Below are positions 39,281 to 46,954 of a stretch of DNA of 64,000 nt, one piece after another (position 1 is the first letter of the stretch; the number at the start of each line of letters is the position of its first letter). The stretch spans positions 62,001 through 126,000 of the forward strand of contig NZ_JAMJXC010000011.1 in the NCBI RefSeq assembly GCF_023571765.1. Direction: 5' to 3'. The notes under the pieces were generated by a model. It saw nothing but the letters and a program-made list of their open reading frames with translations. It was not told the origin of the DNA and did no database searches. The stretch is from Xanthobacter aminoxidans (lineage in GTDB: Bacteria; Pseudomonadota; Alphaproteobacteria; Rhizobiales; Xanthobacteraceae). Made by a program: the position numbers and the translations under genes.

Positions 39281-40177
39281 TCAATGGCCGCGCCGCCACA
39301 GCCCCGGCGCCGATCCGGTGAGGCGCGTGAAGGTGCGCGTCATGTGGCTCTGGTCGGAAAATCCGCAGATGATGGCGATATCCGCCAGCGGCAGGCGCGA
39401 ACCGACGATGAGGTCCCGCGCCCGCTCCACCCGCAGGTGAAGCATCCACTGGTAGGGCGTGAGCCCCGTTTCATCCCTGAAGCACTTGATGAAATGGCCG
39501 CGCGAGACGCCGCAGGCGGCAGCGATGTCGGAGATCAGCACGTTGCCGTCGAGCCCCGCAGCGAGCCGCTCCTTGGCGATGGCGAACTGGCGTGGCGAGA
39601 GACCGCCGGGAATGCGCACCGCAGCGCCGTGATAGCGCGTGGCGAGATGGGTCTGGATGGCAGAGACCACCTGATCCAGGAACAGAGGCACCTGCCGCTC
39701 CGGCGCATCGAGCATGGGCAGAAGCGCCCGCGAGAGGTGCGCCAGCACAGGGTCTTGCGTGCCGGGCGTGCAGGAGACGCACTCCGCCAGCGGCAGCCCC
39801 ATCTCGCTGAAGGTCTGGTGCAGCGCCGCGTGGGAGATCTCCAGCAGGAAGAAGTCGAACCCCGTCTCGATGTCGGCGCGATAGGTGTCAGAGAAGGAGC
39901 GGACGTAGCAGCTGTCCGGCTCGAAATCGTACGCGGTCGCCACGCCGTCGCCGAAGATGCGGCGGCGGTGCCCGCCGGAGAGGGCAACACCCATCAGCAG
40001 GCCCCGACCGCTCGGCGGGGTTTCGACCCGGCTCGTGGCCGCGCCATCATGCTGCTTGCGGTAGACGACGAAGCCGGTGCCGACCAGCTCCCTCTCGTCC
40101 TCCAGCGCGGCGACGGAACAGCCGAGGCTGTCGCGCCGGGTGATTCCGCCTGGTGCCGCCGTGTCTAAACGGGCCAT
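39281..40177 (-). CDS. AraC-family transcriptional regulator
   Basis: This 298-residue protein has a non-conserved N-terminal sensor part and a C-terminal AraC double helix-turn-helix (about residues 190-290), with ISDIAAACGVSRGHFIKCF and DIAIICGFSDQSHMTRTF. It stands alone between the HxlR gene and the nitrile hydratase operon. Its target cannot be told from position. A 190-base gap follows downstream with nothing recognisable in it. Confidence 0.87.
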   Translation of the reverse strand: MARLDTAAPGGITRRDSLGCSVAALEDERELVGTGFVVYRKQHDGAATSRVETPPSGRGLLMGVALSGGHRRRIFGDGVATAYDFEPDSCYVRSFSDTYRADIETGFDFFLLEISHAALHQTFSEMGLPLAECVSCTPGTQDPVLAHLSRALLPMLDAPERQVPLFLDQVVSAIQTHLATRYHGAAVRIPGGLSPRQFAIAKERLAAGLDGNVLISDIAAACGVSRGHFIKCFRDETGLTPYQWMLHLRVERARDLIVGSRLPLADIAIICGFSDQSHMTRTFTRLTGSAPGLWRRGH

Positions 40178-40313: not shown

Positions 40314-40937
40314 TCAGCCCGGGATCAGCTGGGTCACCACCGCCGACAGGCCGATGCCGAAGGCGGCGGCGCCGGCGAGCCGCGGGGCCAGAGACGTGGG
40401 GGTCCAGGCGCGGCCCGACGCGACGAGGGCGACACCCGCGCCGATCACCGACTGCACCACCGCGAGGCCGGCGAGATAGGCGACGAGCTGGGTCGGCTCG
40501 GCACCGACGATGGACTCGCCATAGGCGTAGCCATGGAACAGGCCGGCGATGGCGAACAGGCCGATCCAAACCCCGCGCGCAGGCTTTTCCCGGCCGGCGG
40601 CGAGCAGGCCGCCGATGGCTACCACGCTCAGCGCGATCACCGTCTCGGCGAACGGCAGATTCACAAGCTGCACATGCAGCATGACGCCGGCAATGGAGGC
40701 CACCACGAAGGCCACCGGCACGAAGGCGCCGAGCCCCATCACTCCGGCGATCAGGCCGGCGGCGACGATGAAGCCGAGATGGTCGAGCCCGATCACCGGA
40801 TGGGCGAGGCCTGAGATGAAGCCTTCGCCGAAGGTCGCCGGCAGCCGCCCGCCCATGGCGTGGTGCGCTTCCGCATTGGTGGCTGCGAGGAGGGGAACGA
40901 GGGACAGGAGCGCGATCCTGCTGACGAAACGGGACAT
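40314..40937 (-). CDS. HupE/UreJ-family metal permease, probable cobalt supply
   Basis: This 207-residue protein has a signal peptide (about residues 1-24) and six transmembrane segments, with the HupE/UreJ motif HPVIGLDHLGF (about 47-57) and FHGYAYGES in the middle. The family moves nickel or cobalt for hydrogenase, urease or related enzymes. Here it is the last gene of a cobalt-type nitrile hydratase operon, so cobalt supply is the natural inference. A His-rich start of the mature region (EAHHAMGG) may bind metal. Confidence 0.85.
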   Translation of the reverse strand: MSRFVSRIALLSLVPLLAATNAEAHHAMGGRLPATFGEGFISGLAHPVIGLDHLGFIVAAGLIAGVMGLGAFVPVAFVVASIAGVMLHVQLVNLPFAETVIALSVVAIGGLLAAGREKPARGVWIGLFAIAGLFHGYAYGESIVGAEPTQLVAYLAGLAVVQSVIGAGVALVASGRAWTPTSLAPRLAGAAAFGIGLSAVVTQLIPG

Positions 40938-40981: not shown

Positions 40982-41503
40982 TCAGACGGGGCTGCGCTCC
41001 GGCAGGAGCAGCGCCTGCCGGATGCGCGCCGCGCACAAGGCGGAGGCGTAGGCGAAGCAGGCGCCGAGGATCATGGAGAAGGGCACCAGCAAGAGCGCGT
41101 TGCGGCCCGTGAGGGACAGCATCGCGGCCGGCGTGAAGGCATCCGCGTTCTGGGTGAGGAACGCGAAGGTCGCTGCGTAGCCGTAGGTCACGGCCGGGAT
41201 AGAGGAGAAGGCCGGGATGTAGGCGGTGAGGATGTAGAGGGCGATGGACAGCCCGACGATGACGGCGCCCACCGTCGGCCCCGGCGCGAGGGTGGCGAGG
41301 ACGAGCCCTGTCGCCCACGCCACCGCGACGCCGAACACGTTCGAGACGATGGTGGTCCGGAACGCCGCGGCGTCGCCGCCCGAGTGGAAGAAGCACGCCC
41401 AGGCGATGAACGCCGCCCAGATGAGGAACGCCTGCGTGGACAGGAACAGCCAGGTGCACAGGCCTCCCAGCACGCCGACGCTCAGGGCCAGGGAAATGAT
41501 CAT
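40982..41503 (-). CDS. DUF1097 membrane protein
   Basis: This 173-residue protein has five or so transmembrane segments of the DUF1097 (YcdZ-like) family, with AFIAWACFFHSGGD and LTAYIPAFSSIPAVTYGYA. The ATG at 41503 has GGAGG eight bases upstream. It lies between the nitrile hydratase accessory gene and the HupE-like gene in the same orientation, with 44 bases to the latter. A transport role for nitrile, amide or metal is possible but unproven. Confidence 0.8.
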   Translation of the reverse strand: MIISLALSVGVLGGLCTWLFLSTQAFLIWAAFIAWACFFHSGGDAAAFRTTIVSNVFGVAVAWATGLVLATLAPGPTVGAVIVGLSIALYILTAYIPAFSSIPAVTYGYAATFAFLTQNADAFTPAAMLSLTGRNALLLVPFSMILGACFAYASALCAARIRQALLLPERSPV

Positions 41504-41545
41504 GTGGAAGCCTCCGCTGAGGCGGTGAGACAAGCCTCTCCCGTT

Positions 41546-41644: not shown

Positions 41645-41983
41645 TCAGATCACCTCTTCGCGGGTCCGGTGGAGGAATTCCTCCGTCCTGCGATCCAGCT
41701 CCTCGGCGCTGACGAGGCCGCGCTCCAGAGCGAGCTTCTCGAACGCCGCCAGCCACTGCTGGTAGTAGTTCCAGGTCTCGTCATCGGGGGCGTGGGACTT
41801 GTCCCAGGTGCCGATGGTGCCGATCAGGCTCTGGCGGAAATCCTCCCACTGGTAGGCCTTGGCCTCGGCGAGGGCGAGGGCCATGCCGAAGGCGCGGCCC
41901 TGCCAGGGCTCCTCGAACTGGAGGCTCTCGCAATTGCGCGGGATGGCGCCCCGCCCGTCGAGCGATTCCACATAGATGTCCAT
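41645..41983 (-). CDS. nitrile hydratase accessory protein
   Basis: This 112-residue protein resembles the N-terminal half of nitrile hydratase beta subunits, with FEEPWQGRAFGMALAL and WNYYQQWLAAFEKL. That is the pattern of the small activator proteins (p14K/NhlE type) which escort cobalt into the alpha subunit by subunit swapping. It starts 13 bases after the alpha gene. Its presence supports a cobalt enzyme, as iron-type enzymes usually use a larger P47K activator. Confidence 0.85.
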   Translation of the reverse strand: MDIYVESLDGRGAIPRNCESLQFEEPWQGRAFGMALALAEAKAYQWEDFRQSLIGTIGTWDKSHAPDDETWNYYQQWLAAFEKLALERGLVSAEELDRRTEEFLHRTREEVI

Positions 41984-41996
41984 GGCGACGATCCCT

Positions 41997-42617
41997 TCAG
42001 GCGGAGACGAGGCCGAGGCCCTGCATGGCCTCGGTGGAAACGAGGGCGGCGAGCTTTTCCTCGGGCCAGCCCTCGGTGCCGGCGGGCCGCTCGGGGATCA
42101 CGAAGTAGCGCACCTGCGCGCTCGAATCCCAGATGTCGATCCTTTTGTCCTCGGGCAGGCTCACGCCGAAATCGGCGAGCACGCCGCGCGGCTCGCGCAC
42201 GATGCGGGCGCGGAAGACCGGATCCTTGAACCAGTAGGGCGGCAGGCCGAGCAGCGGCCAGGGCCAGCAGGAGCACAGGGTGCAGCAGACCACGTTGTGC
42301 GCGGCCGAGGTGTTCTCCACCACGCGCAGGTTCTCGCCCTCGATACCGTCCTTGAGGCCGAGTTCGGCGATGGCCTTGTTGGCGTCGGCGAGCAGGCGCG
42401 CCTTGAAGGCCGGATCGGTCCAGGCCTTGGCCACCACCTTGGCGCCGTTGAACGGCCCCATCTCGTGCTCGAAGAAGCGGATGACGCGATCGACCGTGTC
42501 GATGCCGATCATGCCCTTCTCGCGGAACAGGGATTCGAGGGCCTTGGTGCGGGCGGCGTAGTAGCTCTCGCTCTCCCGCAGGTGGTGATGATGTTCGTGA
42601 TCGTGATCGTCGCTCAT
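41997..42617 (-). CDS. nthA: cobalt-type nitrile hydratase, alpha subunit
   Basis: This 206-residue subunit carries the metal-binding motif CTLCSC (Cys112, Cys115, Ser116, Cys117); Thr in the second place marks the cobalt type. It hydrates nitriles to amides in the cytoplasm. Downstream residues WPWPLLGLPPYWFKDP and VREPRGVLADFG are well conserved. Two oddities stand out: an extra Cys (Cys111) directly before the motif, and an Asp/His-rich N-terminus (DDHDHEHHHH) that could bind cobalt. It follows the beta gene by 55 bases and precedes the accessory gene. A thiocyanate hydrolase gamma subunit is a less likely alternative, since the beta subunit is full length. Confidence 0.95.
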   Translation of the reverse strand: MSDDHDHEHHHHLRESESYYAARTKALESLFREKGMIGIDTVDRVIRFFEHEMGPFNGAKVVAKAWTDPAFKARLLADANKAIAELGLKDGIEGENLRVVENTSAAHNVVCCTLCSCWPWPLLGLPPYWFKDPVFRARIVREPRGVLADFGVSLPEDKRIDIWDSSAQVRYFVIPERPAGTEGWPEEKLAALVSTEAMQGLGLVSA

Positions 42618-42672: not shown

Positions 42673-43347
42673 TCAGGCGGCTTCGAGATAGACTTCGAAG
42701 CAGTCGTTGTAGAGAACGTCGCCCTTGTCCGGGATGTCGGACCACAGGTCCCGCGTCTTGAACTTGACGAGATAGACCGGCTGGGTTGTGGAGATGCCGT
42801 CGGTGGGCACGTTGTCGGCGTAGAGATAGGCGCCCTTGTAGACGGTATCGATCACGCCGACCTTGTTGCGCAGATAGCCGGGCAGCCGGGTGTGGACCGC
42901 GGGCGGCATGTCCTTCACGCGCACCTTGTCGCCGACCTTGAACAAGGGATCGACCGCCACGTCCCGATAGGGGTTGGCACCGGTGTAGAAATACTCGATC
43001 ACCCGCTCGGTGACGGCGTTGTCCCCGGAATTGGGGAGCGGCGCGTCGGGGTGTTCCAGGAAGTGCTTGGTGCGTTCCTCAAGCTCTTTTTCGGAAATAT
43101 AGTTTTTCGCCACAAGGAAATGGCACATGCCGCCGAGCCATTTGATGTAGTAGCGATACTTGAAGTAATCGAGCGGGCTCATGCCTTCGGCGAGCACCCG
43201 AAGATCCGGCCAGGCCCAGATGCCGGTGCCCATCATGGTGGTGTGGACCGCGAAGAGCTGGGCCTCCCACGGCTCCACGAACACGCGCTTCTCGACGGCC
43301 ACGGGGCCGAGATTCTCGATGCCCCCGAGGAAATGCTGAACTTTCAT
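42673..43347 (-). CDS. nthB: nitrile hydratase, beta subunit
   Basis: This 224-residue subunit has the beta signature MKVQHFLGGIENLGPV at the N-terminus, an EPWEAQLFAVHTTMMG segment, and a C-terminal SH3-like domain with FKVGDKVRVKDMPP. The order beta-alpha-accessory is that of cobalt nitrile hydratases. The ATG at 43347 is chosen over one seven codons upstream because the family starts MxxxHxLGG and a GAGAGG lies upstream. It is first in the operon and is preceded by a leader with hairpins and an intrinsic terminator. Confidence 0.94.
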   Translation of the reverse strand: MKVQHFLGGIENLGPVAVEKRVFVEPWEAQLFAVHTTMMGTGIWAWPDLRVLAEGMSPLDYFKYRYYIKWLGGMCHFLVAKNYISEKELEERTKHFLEHPDAPLPNSGDNAVTERVIEYFYTGANPYRDVAVDPLFKVGDKVRVKDMPPAVHTRLPGYLRNKVGVIDTVYKGAYLYADNVPTDGISTTQPVYLVKFKTRDLWSDIPDKGDVLYNDCFEVYLEAA

Positions 43348-43493
43348 GCCGACGCCTCTCTCTGCCATGCCTGCGATCCCAGGCGGATCGCCAGCCTCGG
43401 TTGATCCGCCCCTGCCGCCGCGACGGGCGGCCCGCGGAGCGGCGGAACACGAGGAGCCAGGCTTTCAAGGCCGACGAAGATGATCGCCAACGC

Positions 43494-43523
43494 AAAAAAG
43501 CCCGTCAGCACCTCGCTGCGGGC
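43494..43523 (-). terminator. leader terminator (attenuator) upstream of nitrile hydratase beta
   Basis: Read on the minus strand, GCCCG-CAGC pairs with GCTG-A-CGGGC around a five-base loop, followed by TTTTTT. It lies about 150 bases before the beta start, inside the leader, so reading through it would be needed for expression. Confidence 0.8.
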
Positions 43524-43532
43524 GGCTTTGCC
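43521..43532 (-). promoter_or_regulatory. ANTAR-type hairpin P2 of the nitrile hydratase leader
   Basis: On the minus strand, GGC-AAAGCC-GCC gives a short stem with a hexaloop having A at position 1 and G at position 4, the ANTAR consensus. Its 3' arm overlaps the 5' arm of the terminator (43521-43523), as required for exclusive folding. The stem is only 3 bp, so confidence is moderate. Confidence 0.5.
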
Positions 43533-43566
43533 ACTGATCCATAAATCATGCTGGCGGCGTCTTGAT

Positions 43567-43580
43567 GAGCGTCCTTGCTC
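43567..43580 (-). promoter_or_regulatory. ANTAR-type hairpin P1 of the nitrile hydratase leader
   Basis: On the minus strand, GAGC-AAGGAC-GCTC forms a 4-bp stem with a hexaloop fitting AnnGnn. The loop is nearly identical to P1 (AAGGAT) of the divergent amiC leader. Confidence 0.6.
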
Positions 43581-43616
43581 GACGACCGTGAAAACAGTGC
43601 GACGCAACAAAAGAAC

Positions 43617-43622
43617 TGTCAA
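43617..43622 (-). promoter_or_regulatory. -35 element (TTGACA) of the nitrile hydratase promoter
   Basis: A perfect TTGACA in the context CGCTTGACA lies 36 bases upstream of hairpin P1. The -10 at 17-bp spacing (CACTGT) is poor, so an activator or an alternative spacing may be involved. The same CGCTTGACA occurs in the opposite promoter. Confidence 0.5.
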
Positions 43623-43753
43623 GCGCGAATTTTCAGGTGCCGACTTTAGCGCGGAAGCCACGATTTCAATCGGAGATACAGGCACTGACGCACCGCGCCC
43701 CGCTGCTCCCGCCATTTATTCCCCGATTGAATGCGGGCCAGCCACATTTGCGC

Positions 43754-43759
43754 TTGACA
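43754..43759 (+). promoter_or_regulatory. -35 element (TTGACA) of the amiC promoter
   Basis: A perfect TTGACA within CGCTTGACA lies 35 bases upstream of hairpin P1 of the amiC leader. The -10 is weak (CAGGCT at 17-bp spacing, or AGGCTA at 18). It mirrors the nitrile hydratase promoter. Confidence 0.5.
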
Positions 43760-43794
43760 CATCGCCGGCGCACAGTCAGGCTAATTCGTAGGCG

Positions 43795-43812
43795 ATAGGC
43801 AAGGATGCCTAT
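43795..43812 (+). promoter_or_regulatory. ANTAR-type hairpin P1 of the amiC leader
   Basis: ATAGGC-AAGGAT-GCCTAT is a perfect 6-bp stem with a hexaloop having A1 and G4, exactly the ANTAR target consensus. Confidence 0.75.
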
Positions 43813-43838
43813 TAAGTCGCCATTTGCGAACAAACATT

Positions 43839-43852
43839 CGGGACAGACCCCG
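43839..43852 (+). promoter_or_regulatory. ANTAR-type hairpin P2 of the amiC leader
   Basis: CGGG-ACAGAC-CCCG is a perfect 4-bp GC stem with a hexaloop having A1 and G4. It follows P1 by 26 bases and precedes the terminator by 10. Confidence 0.7.
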
Positions 43853-43862
43853 TGGCGATGCA

Positions 43863-43894
43863 GCCCTCAGGCCGAACGGCCCGAGGGCGTTTTT
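43863..43894 (+). terminator. leader terminator upstream of amiC
   Basis: GCCCTC-A-GGCC pairs with GGCC-C-GAGGGC around a GAAC loop, followed by GTTTTTG. It lies 90 bases before the amiC ATG, so the operon must be read through it. This fits AmiR-dependent antitermination. Confidence 0.85.
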
Positions 43895-43983
43895 GTTTGC
43901 GGCAAGGCCAGTTCAAACAAGGCCACTTGCGGCGGGCGGGCATCGACCGGGGCACCCGGGAACGGATACCTGCGGTGAGGGAA

Positions 43984-45135
43984 ATGGCGAGACCCAGCTA
44001 TCGGATCGGCCTGATGTTCTCCACCACGGGGCCCTACAGCACGGTTGCCGGCGCCATGCTCAATGGCGCGCTGCTCGCCGTGTCGGAGATCGGTGAGGCG
44101 GGACCGGTCGAGCTGGTGCCCGTCGTCGTCGATCCGGGCGGCGATCTCGCGCGCTATACGGCGCTGAGCGGCCAGCTTCTCGCCGAAGGGGTGCGCCATG
44201 TGGTCGGCTGCTACACCTCTTCGAGCCGCAAGGAAGTCATCCCCTGCTTCGAAAAGCATGACGGGATGCTCTGGTATCCGTCCCACTACGAGGGCTTCGA
44301 GAGCGCCGACAATGTCGTCTACACAGGCGCGGCGCCGAACCAGCACATCCTGCCGCTGATCGACTACCTCATGTCCACCTTCGGCGACCGCGCCTTCTGC
44401 GTCGGCTCGAACTATATCTGGGCGTGGGAGAACAGCCGCATCCTGCGCGAGACGGTGACGGCGCGCGGCGGCACGGTGGTGGCGGAGCGCTATCTCCCCG
44501 TCGGCGAGACGGACCTGCGCAAGCTCGTGGATGCGGTGATCGAGGCGCGGCCCAGCTTCGTCTTTTCGTCGCTCATCGGGGTCAGCGGCCTCGCCTTCCT
44601 CAGCGCGCTGCGCCATGCCTGCCTTGCGCGCGGCATCGACCAGCCGGGCACCATGCCGGTGGCGAGCTGCAATCTCTCCGAGCCCGATCTCGACGAGCTG
44701 GAGCCGGAGGCCCGCGACGGTCACATCTCCTCCAGCGTCTATTTCTCGGCCCTGCACAACCCGGTGAACGATGTCTTCGTCTCCCGCCACGCCGCAGCCT
44801 ATCCCTCAGCGCCTTTGACCTCGGCGGATGCGGAAGCCTCCTACATCGCGGTGAAGCTGCTGGCCGGCGCGCTGGCCGAGGCGGGCACCGACGAAATCCT
44901 CGCCGTGAAGGCCGCGGTGGCGCGCCAGCGGCTCGCCGCGCCCCAGGGCGACGTGTGGGTGGACGCGGAGACGATGCACTTGCACCTCACGCCACGCATC
45001 GGCCGCTCGCGCGGCACGGAATTCGACATCATCCGCGAGGAGCCGGCGCCCATCCGGCCCGATCCCTATCTGGTGCGCTCCGCGCCCACCGACAGCTGGT
45101 TCGCATCCGCGCCGCGGCTGCGGGTCGCCAAGTAA
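43984..45135 (+). CDS. amiC: AmiC-like amide sensor, negative regulator of AmiR
   Basis: This 383-residue protein has the type I periplasmic binding fold (Peripla_BP_5) but no signal peptide, as expected of cytoplasmic AmiC. Marks shared with AmiC are IGLMFSTTGPYS, VVDPGGD, VGCYTSSSRKEVIP, WYPSHYEGFE and a C-terminal PIRPDPYLV. In Pseudomonas AmiC binds amides and releases AmiR. I chose the ATG at 43984; the frame is open further upstream, but that would cross the leader terminator. AmiR follows after 14 bases. A short-chain amide/urea transporter binding protein is the alternative, disfavoured by the missing signal and the neighbour. Confidence 0.9.
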   Translation: MARPSYRIGLMFSTTGPYSTVAGAMLNGALLAVSEIGEAGPVELVPVVVDPGGDLARYTALSGQLLAEGVRHVVGCYTSSSRKEVIPCFEKHDGMLWYPSHYEGFESADNVVYTGAAPNQHILPLIDYLMSTFGDRAFCVGSNYIWAWENSRILRETVTARGGTVVAERYLPVGETDLRKLVDAVIEARPSFVFSSLIGVSGLAFLSALRHACLARGIDQPGTMPVASCNLSEPDLDELEPEARDGHISSSVYFSALHNPVNDVFVSRHAAAYPSAPLTSADAEASYIAVKLLAGALAEAGTDEILAVKAAVARQRLAAPQGDVWVDAETMHLHLTPRIGRSRGTEFDIIREEPAPIRPDPYLVRSAPTDSWFASAPRLRVAK

Positions 45136-45149
45136 GGAGCGGGCGAGCC

Positions 45150-45797
45150 ATGTCCCGCAACCTCCTCCAGAACTTCCGCGGCGCCCGCGCGCTCATCATC
45201 GCCTCCGGCGAAGGCGGCATCGACACGCTGGAGAGCGTGCTCGGCAAGCTCGGCCTCTTGGTCGCCCGCTCGGAGGCGCCGGAGGCGGGCCGCCATCTCG
45301 ACCTCGCCTCGGTGGAGGAGCGCGCGGACCTGCTCTTCATCGACGGCGACCTCGACAGCGTGCTGCCCTGCGACCTCGGCGCGGCCCGCACCCCGCCGGT
45401 GCCGGTGATCGGGCTGGTCGGCATCGAGGCGCCGGGCCGGCTGAAGGCGTTGATGAACCAGGGGGCCACGGCCTTCCTGCGCAAGCCGGTCTATGCCGGC
45501 GCCGTCTACACCACGCTGTTCCTCGGCGTGAATCAGTATCTGCTGCGCAAGGAGATGGCGAGCGAGCTGAACGCCCAGCAGGATCGCCGCCGCCGCCGCA
45601 AGGCGGTCATCAAGACCATCCTGCTGCTGATGGAAGAGCACCAGGTGGATGACGACGAGGCCTATGTCATGCTCCGCCGCGACAGCATGCGCCGGCGCCA
45701 GAGCCTTGAGGATTATTGCGAGGACTACATCTCCGGCCGGTCGAAGCTGACCGCGTCCTCGCCCGAAGCCGAGCCGCGCACCGCGGCCCGGCGCTGA
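45150..45797 (+). CDS. amiR: AmiR-like ANTAR antiterminator
   Basis: This 215-residue protein has a pseudo-receiver domain (about residues 10-125, lacking a clear phosphorylation triad) and a C-terminal coiled coil plus ANTAR domain (about 136-195). The ANTAR part contains a basic RRRRRK stretch, AYVMLRRDSMRRRQSLEDYCEDYI and an Arg/Lys-rich tail. ANTAR domains bind paired hexaloop RNA hairpins and prevent terminator formation. The region upstream of amiC, and of the divergent nitrile hydratase, holds such hairpins. The tail after residue 195 is low-complexity. Confidence 0.9.
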   Translation: MSRNLLQNFRGARALIIASGEGGIDTLESVLGKLGLLVARSEAPEAGRHLDLASVEERADLLFIDGDLDSVLPCDLGAARTPPVPVIGLVGIEAPGRLKALMNQGATAFLRKPVYAGAVYTTLFLGVNQYLLRKEMASELNAQQDRRRRRKAVIKTILLLMEEHQVDDDEAYVMLRRDSMRRRQSLEDYCEDYISGRSKLTASSPEAEPRTAARR

Positions 45798-45886: not shown

Positions 45887-46954
45887 ATGTCCCGGCATCC
45901 CATGTCCCGGCAGCACGCATCACGGCCCCTGACGCCGCCCCCCTATTCCCCTCCCGATCCGGCCTGGCTCGAAGGCTCCATCATGGCCGCACGCGGCGAA
46001 GCCAAAGGGCGCGCCGGCGAACGCTACGAGATCACCGAGGCGAGCCAGGGCAAGTATCACTACGTCTACGGCCCGTATGCCACGCCCGTGCTGCGCGTGG
46101 ATCCGGGCGCGGTGGTGAGCGCCGAGACCCACGACGCCATGGAAGGGCAGATCAAAAGCGAGAGCGACAAGCCGTCGGAAATCCTCAACTTTCCCTTCCT
46201 CAACCCGCAGAATGGGCCGATCTTCGTCAACGGCGCGGAGAAGGGCGACTGCCTCGCCGTCTATATCCACGACATCGTGCCGCGCGGGCCGCAGCCCATC
46301 GGCACCACCTGCATCATGCCGGAGTTCGGCGGCCTCGTCGGCACAGGCGACACCGCGATCCTCAACGCGCCTTTGCCGGAGATCGTGAAGAAGCTGCACG
46401 TGGATCCGGCGACTGGCGTGCGCTGGAACGAGCGAATCAGCCTGCCCTACCAGCCCTTCATCGGCACCATCGGCACCGCGCCGGAGATCGAGGCCATTTC
46501 CTCCCTCGTCCCCGACTATTACGGCGGCAACATGGACCTGCCGGACGTGGCTCCCGGCGCCGTCATCTACCTGCCGGTGCATGCGCCCGGCGCCCTGCTC
46601 TATCTCGGCGATTGCCACGCGACGCAGGGCGACGGGGAATTATGCGGATTCGCCATCGAGCATCCCACCGTGACCACGGTGCAGATCGACCTCATCAAGG
46701 GGTGGAACTTCCGCTGGCCGCGGCTGGAGACCCACGACCGCATCATGACCATCGGCTCCGGCCGCCCCATGGAGGACGCCGCCCGCATCGCCTATCGAGA
46801 ACTGGTGCGCTGGATGGCCGCCGACTACGGGTATGACGAGCTGGAAGCCTACATGCTGCTGACGCAGGCAGGGCACCTCAGGGTCGGCAACATGGTGGAC
46901 CCGAAGTACACGCTCGGCGCCTCCGTCGACAAGACGCTTCTCGGCGCGGCCTGA
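45887..46954 (+). CDS. acetamidase/formamidase-family amidase
   Basis: This 355-residue FmdA_AmdA-family enzyme has AETHDAMEGQI, GPIFVNGAEKGDCLAV, GGNMDLPDVAPGAVIYLPV, LGDCHATQGDGE and a C-terminal LLTQAG-LRVGNMVDP segment. It hydrolyses short aliphatic amides to acid and ammonia, completing nitrile to acid with the divergent nitrile hydratase. The ATG at 45887 has AAGGAGA eight bases upstream. It is the third gene of the amiC-amiR operon. It is only distantly similar to the formamidase at 58839-60065. Confidence 0.9.
   Translation: MSRHPMSRQHASRPLTPPPYSPPDPAWLEGSIMAARGEAKGRAGERYEITEASQGKYHYVYGPYATPVLRVDPGAVVSAETHDAMEGQIKSESDKPSEILNFPFLNPQNGPIFVNGAEKGDCLAVYIHDIVPRGPQPIGTTCIMPEFGGLVGTGDTAILNAPLPEIVKKLHVDPATGVRWNERISLPYQPFIGTIGTAPEIEAISSLVPDYYGGNMDLPDVAPGAVIYLPVHAPGALLYLGDCHATQGDGELCGFAIEHPTVTTVQIDLIKGWNFRWPRLETHDRIMTIGSGRPMEDAARIAYRELVRWMAADYGYDELEAYMLLTQAGHLRVGNMVDPKYTLGASVDKTLLGAA

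Follow-up and report, generated by a model that had tools for sequence, protein, structure and literature searches.

Candidate ANTAR Leaders Precede Both Divergent Transcripts at a Nitrile Hydratase–amiCR Locus of Xanthobacter aminoxidans

Introduction

The closest described counterpart of the locus reported here is the amiE leader of Pseudomonas aeruginosa. As the passages on this system in PMC3369931 describe it, the leader works with the amide sensor AmiC and the ANTAR protein AmiR and contains hexaloop hairpins overlapping a terminator, all features with a likeness at our locus. ANTAR regulons with several leaders are also known from nitrogen metabolism, including those of EutV in Enterococcus faecalis and of Desulfotomaculum acetoxidans (PMC3369931), and the present locus resembles them in that a single ANTAR system in nitrogen metabolism would act on more than one leader. 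In contrast to those regulons, the sensor partner here is AmiC, and the targets would be an amide producer and an amide consumer.

We analyzed a 64,000-nt stretch of X. aminoxidans DNA (hereafter the window). Set against the P. aeruginosa amiE leader, which we know by description, the window has two divergent leaders, one of which serves nitrile hydratase. In addition, amiC comes first among the genes that follow its leader, the amidase belongs to the FmdA type, the first hairpin (P1) has an outer stem and an unpaired 3′ stretch, and the linkers between the two hairpins are long. The nitrile hydratase of Rhodococcus rhodochrous J1 is reportedly induced by its reaction product, and its regulators include an AmiC-like protein. 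That organism is actinobacterial, unlike the one analyzed here, and the likeness lies in a hydratase induced by its product; we know of no ANTAR RNA switch in it. The literature that we searched contained no report of ANTAR control of a nitrile hydratase, and in a term search the word "nitrile" was absent from the main texts of the ANTAR papers PMC3369931 and PMC8164766.

Results and Discussion

Organization of the Locus

The locus, within G000:C4, consists of a cobalt-type nitrile hydratase operon on the minus strand and an amiC–amiR–amidase operon on the plus strand, transcribed divergently with the leaders between them. The hydratase operon encodes the β-subunit (42673–43368, −), the start of which is more likely the ATG at 43347 (MKVQHF), the apparent start in relatives; the α-subunit (41997–42617, −), which carries CTLCSC, presumably the cobalt-type motif, and whose best solved matches are cobalt hydratases; and an accessory (activator) protein recognized by a profile match (41645–41983, −). 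The profiles expected of a cobalt nitrile hydratase operon, TIGR03888, TIGR01323, and TIGR03889, all score above cutoff. Further along the same strand lie a gene for a DUF1097 protein (40982–41533), which also adjoins the hydratase in relatives, and a putative operon member of the HupE/UreJ family (40314–40901), a possible metal importer that recurs only in two same-genus loci. A gene for an AraC-type regulator (39281–40177) is also located beside the hydratase genes. The DUF1097 gene accompanies the hydratase in the window, in 9/9 loci with both amiCR and hydratase (L095–L103), and in 8/11 hydratase loci without amiCR.

On the plus strand, amiC (43984–45135) encodes an amide-sensor homologue whose closest solved structure is P. 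aeruginosa AmiC (E 4.4e-64 in a solved-structure search; PDB 1pea/1qnl). The following gene, amiR (45132–45797, +), has a listed frame that opens with GTG, its first ATG being codon 7, and encodes an ANTAR antiterminator homologue that matches P. aeruginosa AmiR at E 1.4e-5 (PDB 1qo0). The presence of an AmiC/AmiR pair in one operon is borne out by PF13433 and PF03861, both above cutoff, with AmiR_N (PF21332) below it at 20 of 27 bits. The third gene encodes an FmdA_AmdA acetamidase/formamidase (45983–46954, +; the ATG at 45983 is assumed as the start and the search was run from 45986). The amiR gene adjoins the leaders and is a candidate ANTAR partner for both. A search for related loci returned one, the same locus in Xanthobacter sp. 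YC-JY1, where amiR is 96% identical.

Both Transcripts Begin with a P1–P2–Terminator Leader

On both transcripts the order of elements is promoter, an extended hexaloop hairpin (P1), and a second hexaloop hairpin (P2) that overlaps a terminator, a layout that, as read from the sequence, is that of the ANTAR antitermination grammar. The putative promoters are consensus matches only, and their −10 hexamers are poor. The amiC operon has TTGACA at 43754–43759 (+) and the −10-like CAGGCT at 43777–43782, and the hydratase operon has TTGACA at 43617–43622 (−) and the −10-like CACTGT at 43594–43599, each with a 17-nt spacer. A simple promoter/terminator scanner detected no sigma-70 promoter and neither leader terminator. 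The two promoters do share CGCTTGACA (43751–43759, + and 43617–43625, −), as an earlier note on this DNA had stated; because this string occurs three times in the window, where 0.48 matches are expected, it is weak evidence when taken alone. Of 33 leaders from the window and other loci, 29 have an nAnnnT hexamer 17 nt past the −35 element, and the P1 module starts 5–6 nt further on. Thus, if these hexamers are −10 boxes, P1 would form the very start of the RNA.

The amiC-side P1 (43791–43821, +) is built from an outer stem (43791–43795/43817–43821) and an inner stem (43797–43800/43807–43810) that presents the hexaloop AAGGAT (43801–43806). The hydratase-side P1 (43558–43584, −) likewise has an outer stem (43584–43581/43561–43558) and an inner GAGC/GCTC stem, with the hexaloop AAGGAC (43576–43571). 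The near identity of the two loops noted earlier is therefore correct. The distances from TTGACA to P1 had been given as 36 on the hydratase side and 35 on the amiC side. The former agrees with our measurement; the latter is 37 when measured to the 4-bp inner stem, and 35 is obtained if two extra A–U pairs of P1 are included. The same build, a 4-bp stem with a hexaloop set on an outer stem and an unpaired 3′ stretch of 5–6 nt, is seen across relatives.

Comparison with relatives gives P2 the form GGC-RNNGNN-GCC. On the amiC side it reads GGC-GATGCA-GCC (43854–43865, +), with G at loop positions 1 and 4, and aligns with ggcANNGNNgcc of relatives; on the hydratase side it reads GGC-AAAGCC-GCC (43521–43532, −). 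Each P2 shares its GCC with an intrinsic terminator that is followed by a T-run (43863–43894, + in the amiC leader and 43494–43523, − in the hydratase leader). Because the terminator stem begins with the 3′ arm of P2, the two structures are mutually exclusive. Both terminator stems contain a mismatch or bulge. RNAfold was applied to four leaders; for each of the two in the window, its minimum-energy fold contains P1 and the terminator, with z-scores of −4.3 and −2.0 against shuffles. Another hairpin in the amiC-leader linker, CGGG-ACAGAC-CCCG (43839–43852, +), has a loop of the ANNGNN form and is found in three Xanthobacter-type loci. We considered it as P2 and rejected it, because the remaining six paired loci do not preserve its loop and because it lies clear of the terminator; it may be a chance feature or an additional ANTAR site.

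In the window hydratase leader the P1 and P2 loops are both canonical (A1, G4). In the window amiC leader the P1 loop is canonical and the P2 loop (GATGCA) opens with G, as it does in the three Xanthobacter-type loci. Among the 18 leaders of the nine paired loci described below, the P1 loop has G4 in 18 and A1 in 17. All 18 have, at the terminator, a P2 of the form searched for, GGCRNNGNNGCC, sharing its GCC with a terminator-like stem; the P2 loop has A1 in 15/18 and G4 in all, G4 being required by the search. Among amiC leaders elsewhere, position 1 of the P2 loop is G in 5 of the 14 with a P2 call.

The feature that departs most plainly from published ANTAR RNAs is the linker. Measured from the inner P1 stem, it spans 34 nt in the hydratase leader and 43 nt in the amiC leader of the window, and in the nine paired loci it is 34 nt in 8/9 and 33 nt in one on the hydratase side and 43–54 nt on the amiC side. 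By comparison, the part of PMC3369931 on eut leaders gives linkers of 5–12 nt, and the screen of actinobacterial ANTAR RNAs, as outlined in PMC8164766, used a linker criterion of 2–25 nt; the window and its relatives exceed both ranges. Part of this length is accounted for by the outer arm of P1 and the linker hairpin. Because linker length varies among ANTAR RNAs, we regard the long linker as a variant rather than as grounds for exclusion. The result is a conserved leader alignment, in which comparison locates P2, for a group of ANTAR RNAs with linkers beyond published limits; such leaders would escape a screen that allows linkers of up to 25 nt.

The combined pattern is rare. TTGACA-N34–38-RGCANNGNNGCY has two matches in the 64 kb, exactly these leaders, against 0.02 expected, and 0/100 shuffles contained two. 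Addition of P2 and the T-run to give the full grammar again yielded two window matches, and none in 40 simple dinucleotide shuffles of the window (2.56 million bases, both strands). The P2 pattern GGCRNNGNNGCCC alone is not enriched, with 16 matches in the window against 11.2 expected. Rfam, which may or may not hold an ANTAR family, gave no window match at gathering, and at E <= 1 only p27_CRE, elsewhere in the gap and below its own cutoff.

The Paired Leaders Are Conserved and Accompany amiCR

Relatives were searched at the level of order (397 genomes), family (149), phylum (398), and genus (14, 13, and 14). Nine loci have the divergent hydratase–amiC order, namely the window, two same-genus genomes, five of genus g40, and one of g82, and these are all the matches with a hydratase β-subunit at least 80% identical. 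Both mirror-image leaders, described from the window in the earlier note, are present in 9/9 loci with this gene order, the window included; the same note had named their absence from such relatives as an outcome that would refute it, and this outcome was not observed. The phylum-level search gave matches at E <= 1e-30 in 4/398 genomes, two of them new. In plasmid searches the hydratase was <60% identical in all 57 matching records, and amiR likewise in all 80. Hydratase loci were fetched down to ~42% identity (20 stretches), and amiCR was looked for in these.

Eleven amiC leaders from loci lacking nitrile hydratase served to build a model, R1 (L127–L130, misaligned by MAFFT, were left out of its seed), which was run over 30 sources totaling 366,920 bases. 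R1 matches in 9/9 paired loci, at E 3.3e-9 to 1.3e-7 on the amiC side and 5.5e-10 to 3.7e-4 on the hydratase side. In the window the values are 1.1e-8 and 3.7e-4, respectively, and none of the 18 leaders scores lower with R1 than the window hydratase leader (22.7 bits, a shared minimum). R1 gave no match at E <= 0.01 (best 0.2) in the 11 fetched hydratase loci whose stretch contains no amiCR. Among these 11 are the second hydratase operons of G215 and G326; in both genomes the other hydratase has the paired leaders. A second model, R2, built from both leader types, gave in the same 11 loci a best E of 0.061, away from the hydratase start, and an R1 match near the hydratase start of L113 (E 0.24) was absent with R2. 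The leader thus tracks amiCR rather than nitrile hydratase. Among the 20 fetched amiCR loci without hydratase, L131–L134 were excluded from leader counts; of these, R1 scored L132 at E 9.9e-4 and L133 at 0.024 and gave L134 only an off-place match at 0.97. P1 counts exclude L117, whose 7-nt loop the pattern missed, and L129 has no P2 by pattern.

With 150 candidates scored per genome, R2 ranks the two leaders first and second in all nine genomes (E <= 2.4e-13), scores that are not independent in that R2 was partly trained on the leaders it recovers. The next-best match per genome lies between E 7.5e-4 and 0.44, the lower value being the third match in G363. Eleven loci with R2 matches outside amiCR, viewed by eye, had no evident link to nitrile metabolism, a weak negative in that these comprise five plus six, the six having come from scoring only 10 candidates per genome.

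Comparison gives mixed evidence on the pairing of P1. In the whole set, 89.2% of P1 cells are paired against 83.2% in shuffles, and 21 cells are double-changed against 6.8 (0/500 as high); on the hydratase side alone, four P1 cells are double-changed against 1.3 (1/500 shuffles as high). The paired fraction of P1 cells, the double-changed cells, and the covariation score all exceed both shuffles and slid controls, in the whole set (0/500) and on the hydratase side (1/500). Counts of pairs changed on both sides are at shuffle level, 4 vs. 3.6 in the whole set (reached by 287/500) and 2 vs. 1.0 on the hydratase side (56/500), as are counts of pair types, 8 vs. 8.6 (407/500) and 2 vs. 2.8 (500/500), respectively. 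Because the pair and pair-type counts do not exceed shuffles, and because kinship can exceed such shuffles without structure, we regard the covariation support as modest.

A Proposed Product-Induced Switch and Its Alternatives

Collectively, we put at roughly 80% the probability that each of the two divergent transcripts opens with an ANTAR leader responsive to AmiR and that AmiR freed by amide antiterminates both operons; amide induction through AmiC/AmiR would follow from homology. When amide is absent, AmiC would hold AmiR, and RNA polymerase would halt at the terminator of each leader. When amide is present, AmiC would release AmiR, a dimer of which would bind the P1 and P2 hexaloops on either nascent RNA. 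An AmiR-bound P2 would withhold its 3′ arm from the terminator, permitting read-through of both operons, the outputs being nitrile hydratase, which produces amide, and the sensor, the antiterminator, and the amidase, which consumes it. Amide would in this way raise its own producer (a positive feedback that needs some basal hydratase), its own consumer, and the AmiC/AmiR pair itself. The earlier note called this arrangement feed-forward, a term that does not fit the hydratase arm, as a producer induced by its product constitutes positive feedback; if amide frees AmiR, the circuit logic is that of product-induced catabolism. Going further, we lean toward the view that the single AmiC/AmiR pair acts as a product-induced switch over two divergent RNAs, for the hydratase and the amidase, and that the leaders represent a structural ANTAR subtype in which P1 lies at the very 5′ end and the linker is long and folded. 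If true, nitrile hydratase, an industrial enzyme, would be under RNA antitermination in a compact two-output amide switch.

The genome encodes a second ANTAR protein (G000:C15), and ANTAR loops are short and similar, so that the hydratase leader might conceivably answer to that protein rather than to AmiR. However, R1, which derives from amiC leaders only, finds the hydratase leaders at 9/9 amiCR loci and at 0/11 loci without amiCR at E <= 0.01, and we consider this assignment very improbable. Quite unlikely, too, is that the Xanthobacter hydratase operon is mainly under the adjacent AraC-type regulator, with the leader minor or a relict. An AraC-type match (27–32% identity, mostly in the HTH part) is found in 11/11 fetched hydratase loci without amiCR, and the AraC gene of the window is kept in both same-genus paired loci, but such a match occurs in 0/6 paired loci outside Xanthobacter and not in L103, and P1, P2, and the terminator of the hydratase leader are recognizable in 9/9 loci. 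This pattern hints at a change of regulator type where amiCR is present, and Xanthobacter-type loci have both the AraC-type gene and amiCR.

The nature of the signal allows more latitude. Both leaders could be AmiR targets while the ligand is urea or another amide, in which case the loop between producer and product would not be closed. AmiC-like proteins include urea binders (the UrtA model matched below cutoff), and a second gene for an AmiC-like binding protein stands beside amiR in 18/20 fetched amiCR loci without hydratase. Nevertheless, among solved structures the amide sensor AmiC matches best, with urea-binding structures well behind, and the downstream enzyme is an acetamidase/formamidase, and we therefore judge a different signal unlikely, if well worth keeping in mind.

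Origin of the Leader Pair

The matched spacing of the two leaders had been taken as a sign that one module was duplicated. In the nine paired loci the distance from −35 to P1 is 37 in 9/9 on the amiC side, and 36 in 8/9 and 37 in 1/9 on the hydratase side. Leaders from 16 of the 20 fetched hydratase-free amiCR loci entered the comparison; 15 were measurable, and in these the spacing is 37 in 11 and 36 in 4. The value of 36–37 is thus common to the whole leader family (15/15 measured amiC leaders with no hydratase nearby) and provides no argument for duplication.

A FastTree analysis of joined P1 and P2–terminator pieces (~80 positions; L095, L096, and L129 excluded) placed hydratase-side and amiC-side leaders in separate clades, with local support of 0.91 and 0.88, and the two clades have a similar branching order. 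The separation makes a recent copy unlikely, and any duplication is probably older than these loci. Together with the similar branching order, it suggests that the pair probably predates the split of the loci and that its two members were inherited, or moved, together. An origin by local duplication of a single module, as proposed in the earlier note, is in our view doubtful without being far-fetched. The architecture is alike on both sides, and leaders from the same genome are slightly more alike than re-paired ones (seven genomes, fraction 0.048; L095 and L096 excluded). Against this stand the separate clades, with the hydratase clade located beside amiC leaders L128 and L130 (a placement without usable support), and the differences in linker and terminator between the leader types.

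Leader Variants at Other Loci

Several loci carry elements that depart from the forms described above. In G081 (L103) the genes for hydratase, DUF1097, AmiC, AmiR, and amidase all run in one direction, and leader-like elements precede the hydratase (L103:4860–4964) and the accessory gene (L103:10928–11027). Both elements score weakly with R2 (E 5.3e-5 and 0.038), and no P1 is recognizable in them. Three amiC leaders, L116:6378–6413, L118:5945–5980, and L119:3320–3355, are without G at position 4 of the P1 loop and fit R1 strongly, being themselves part of its seed. Finally, the leader at L117:6870–6994 has a 7-nt P1 loop yet matches R1 at E 2.2e-27.
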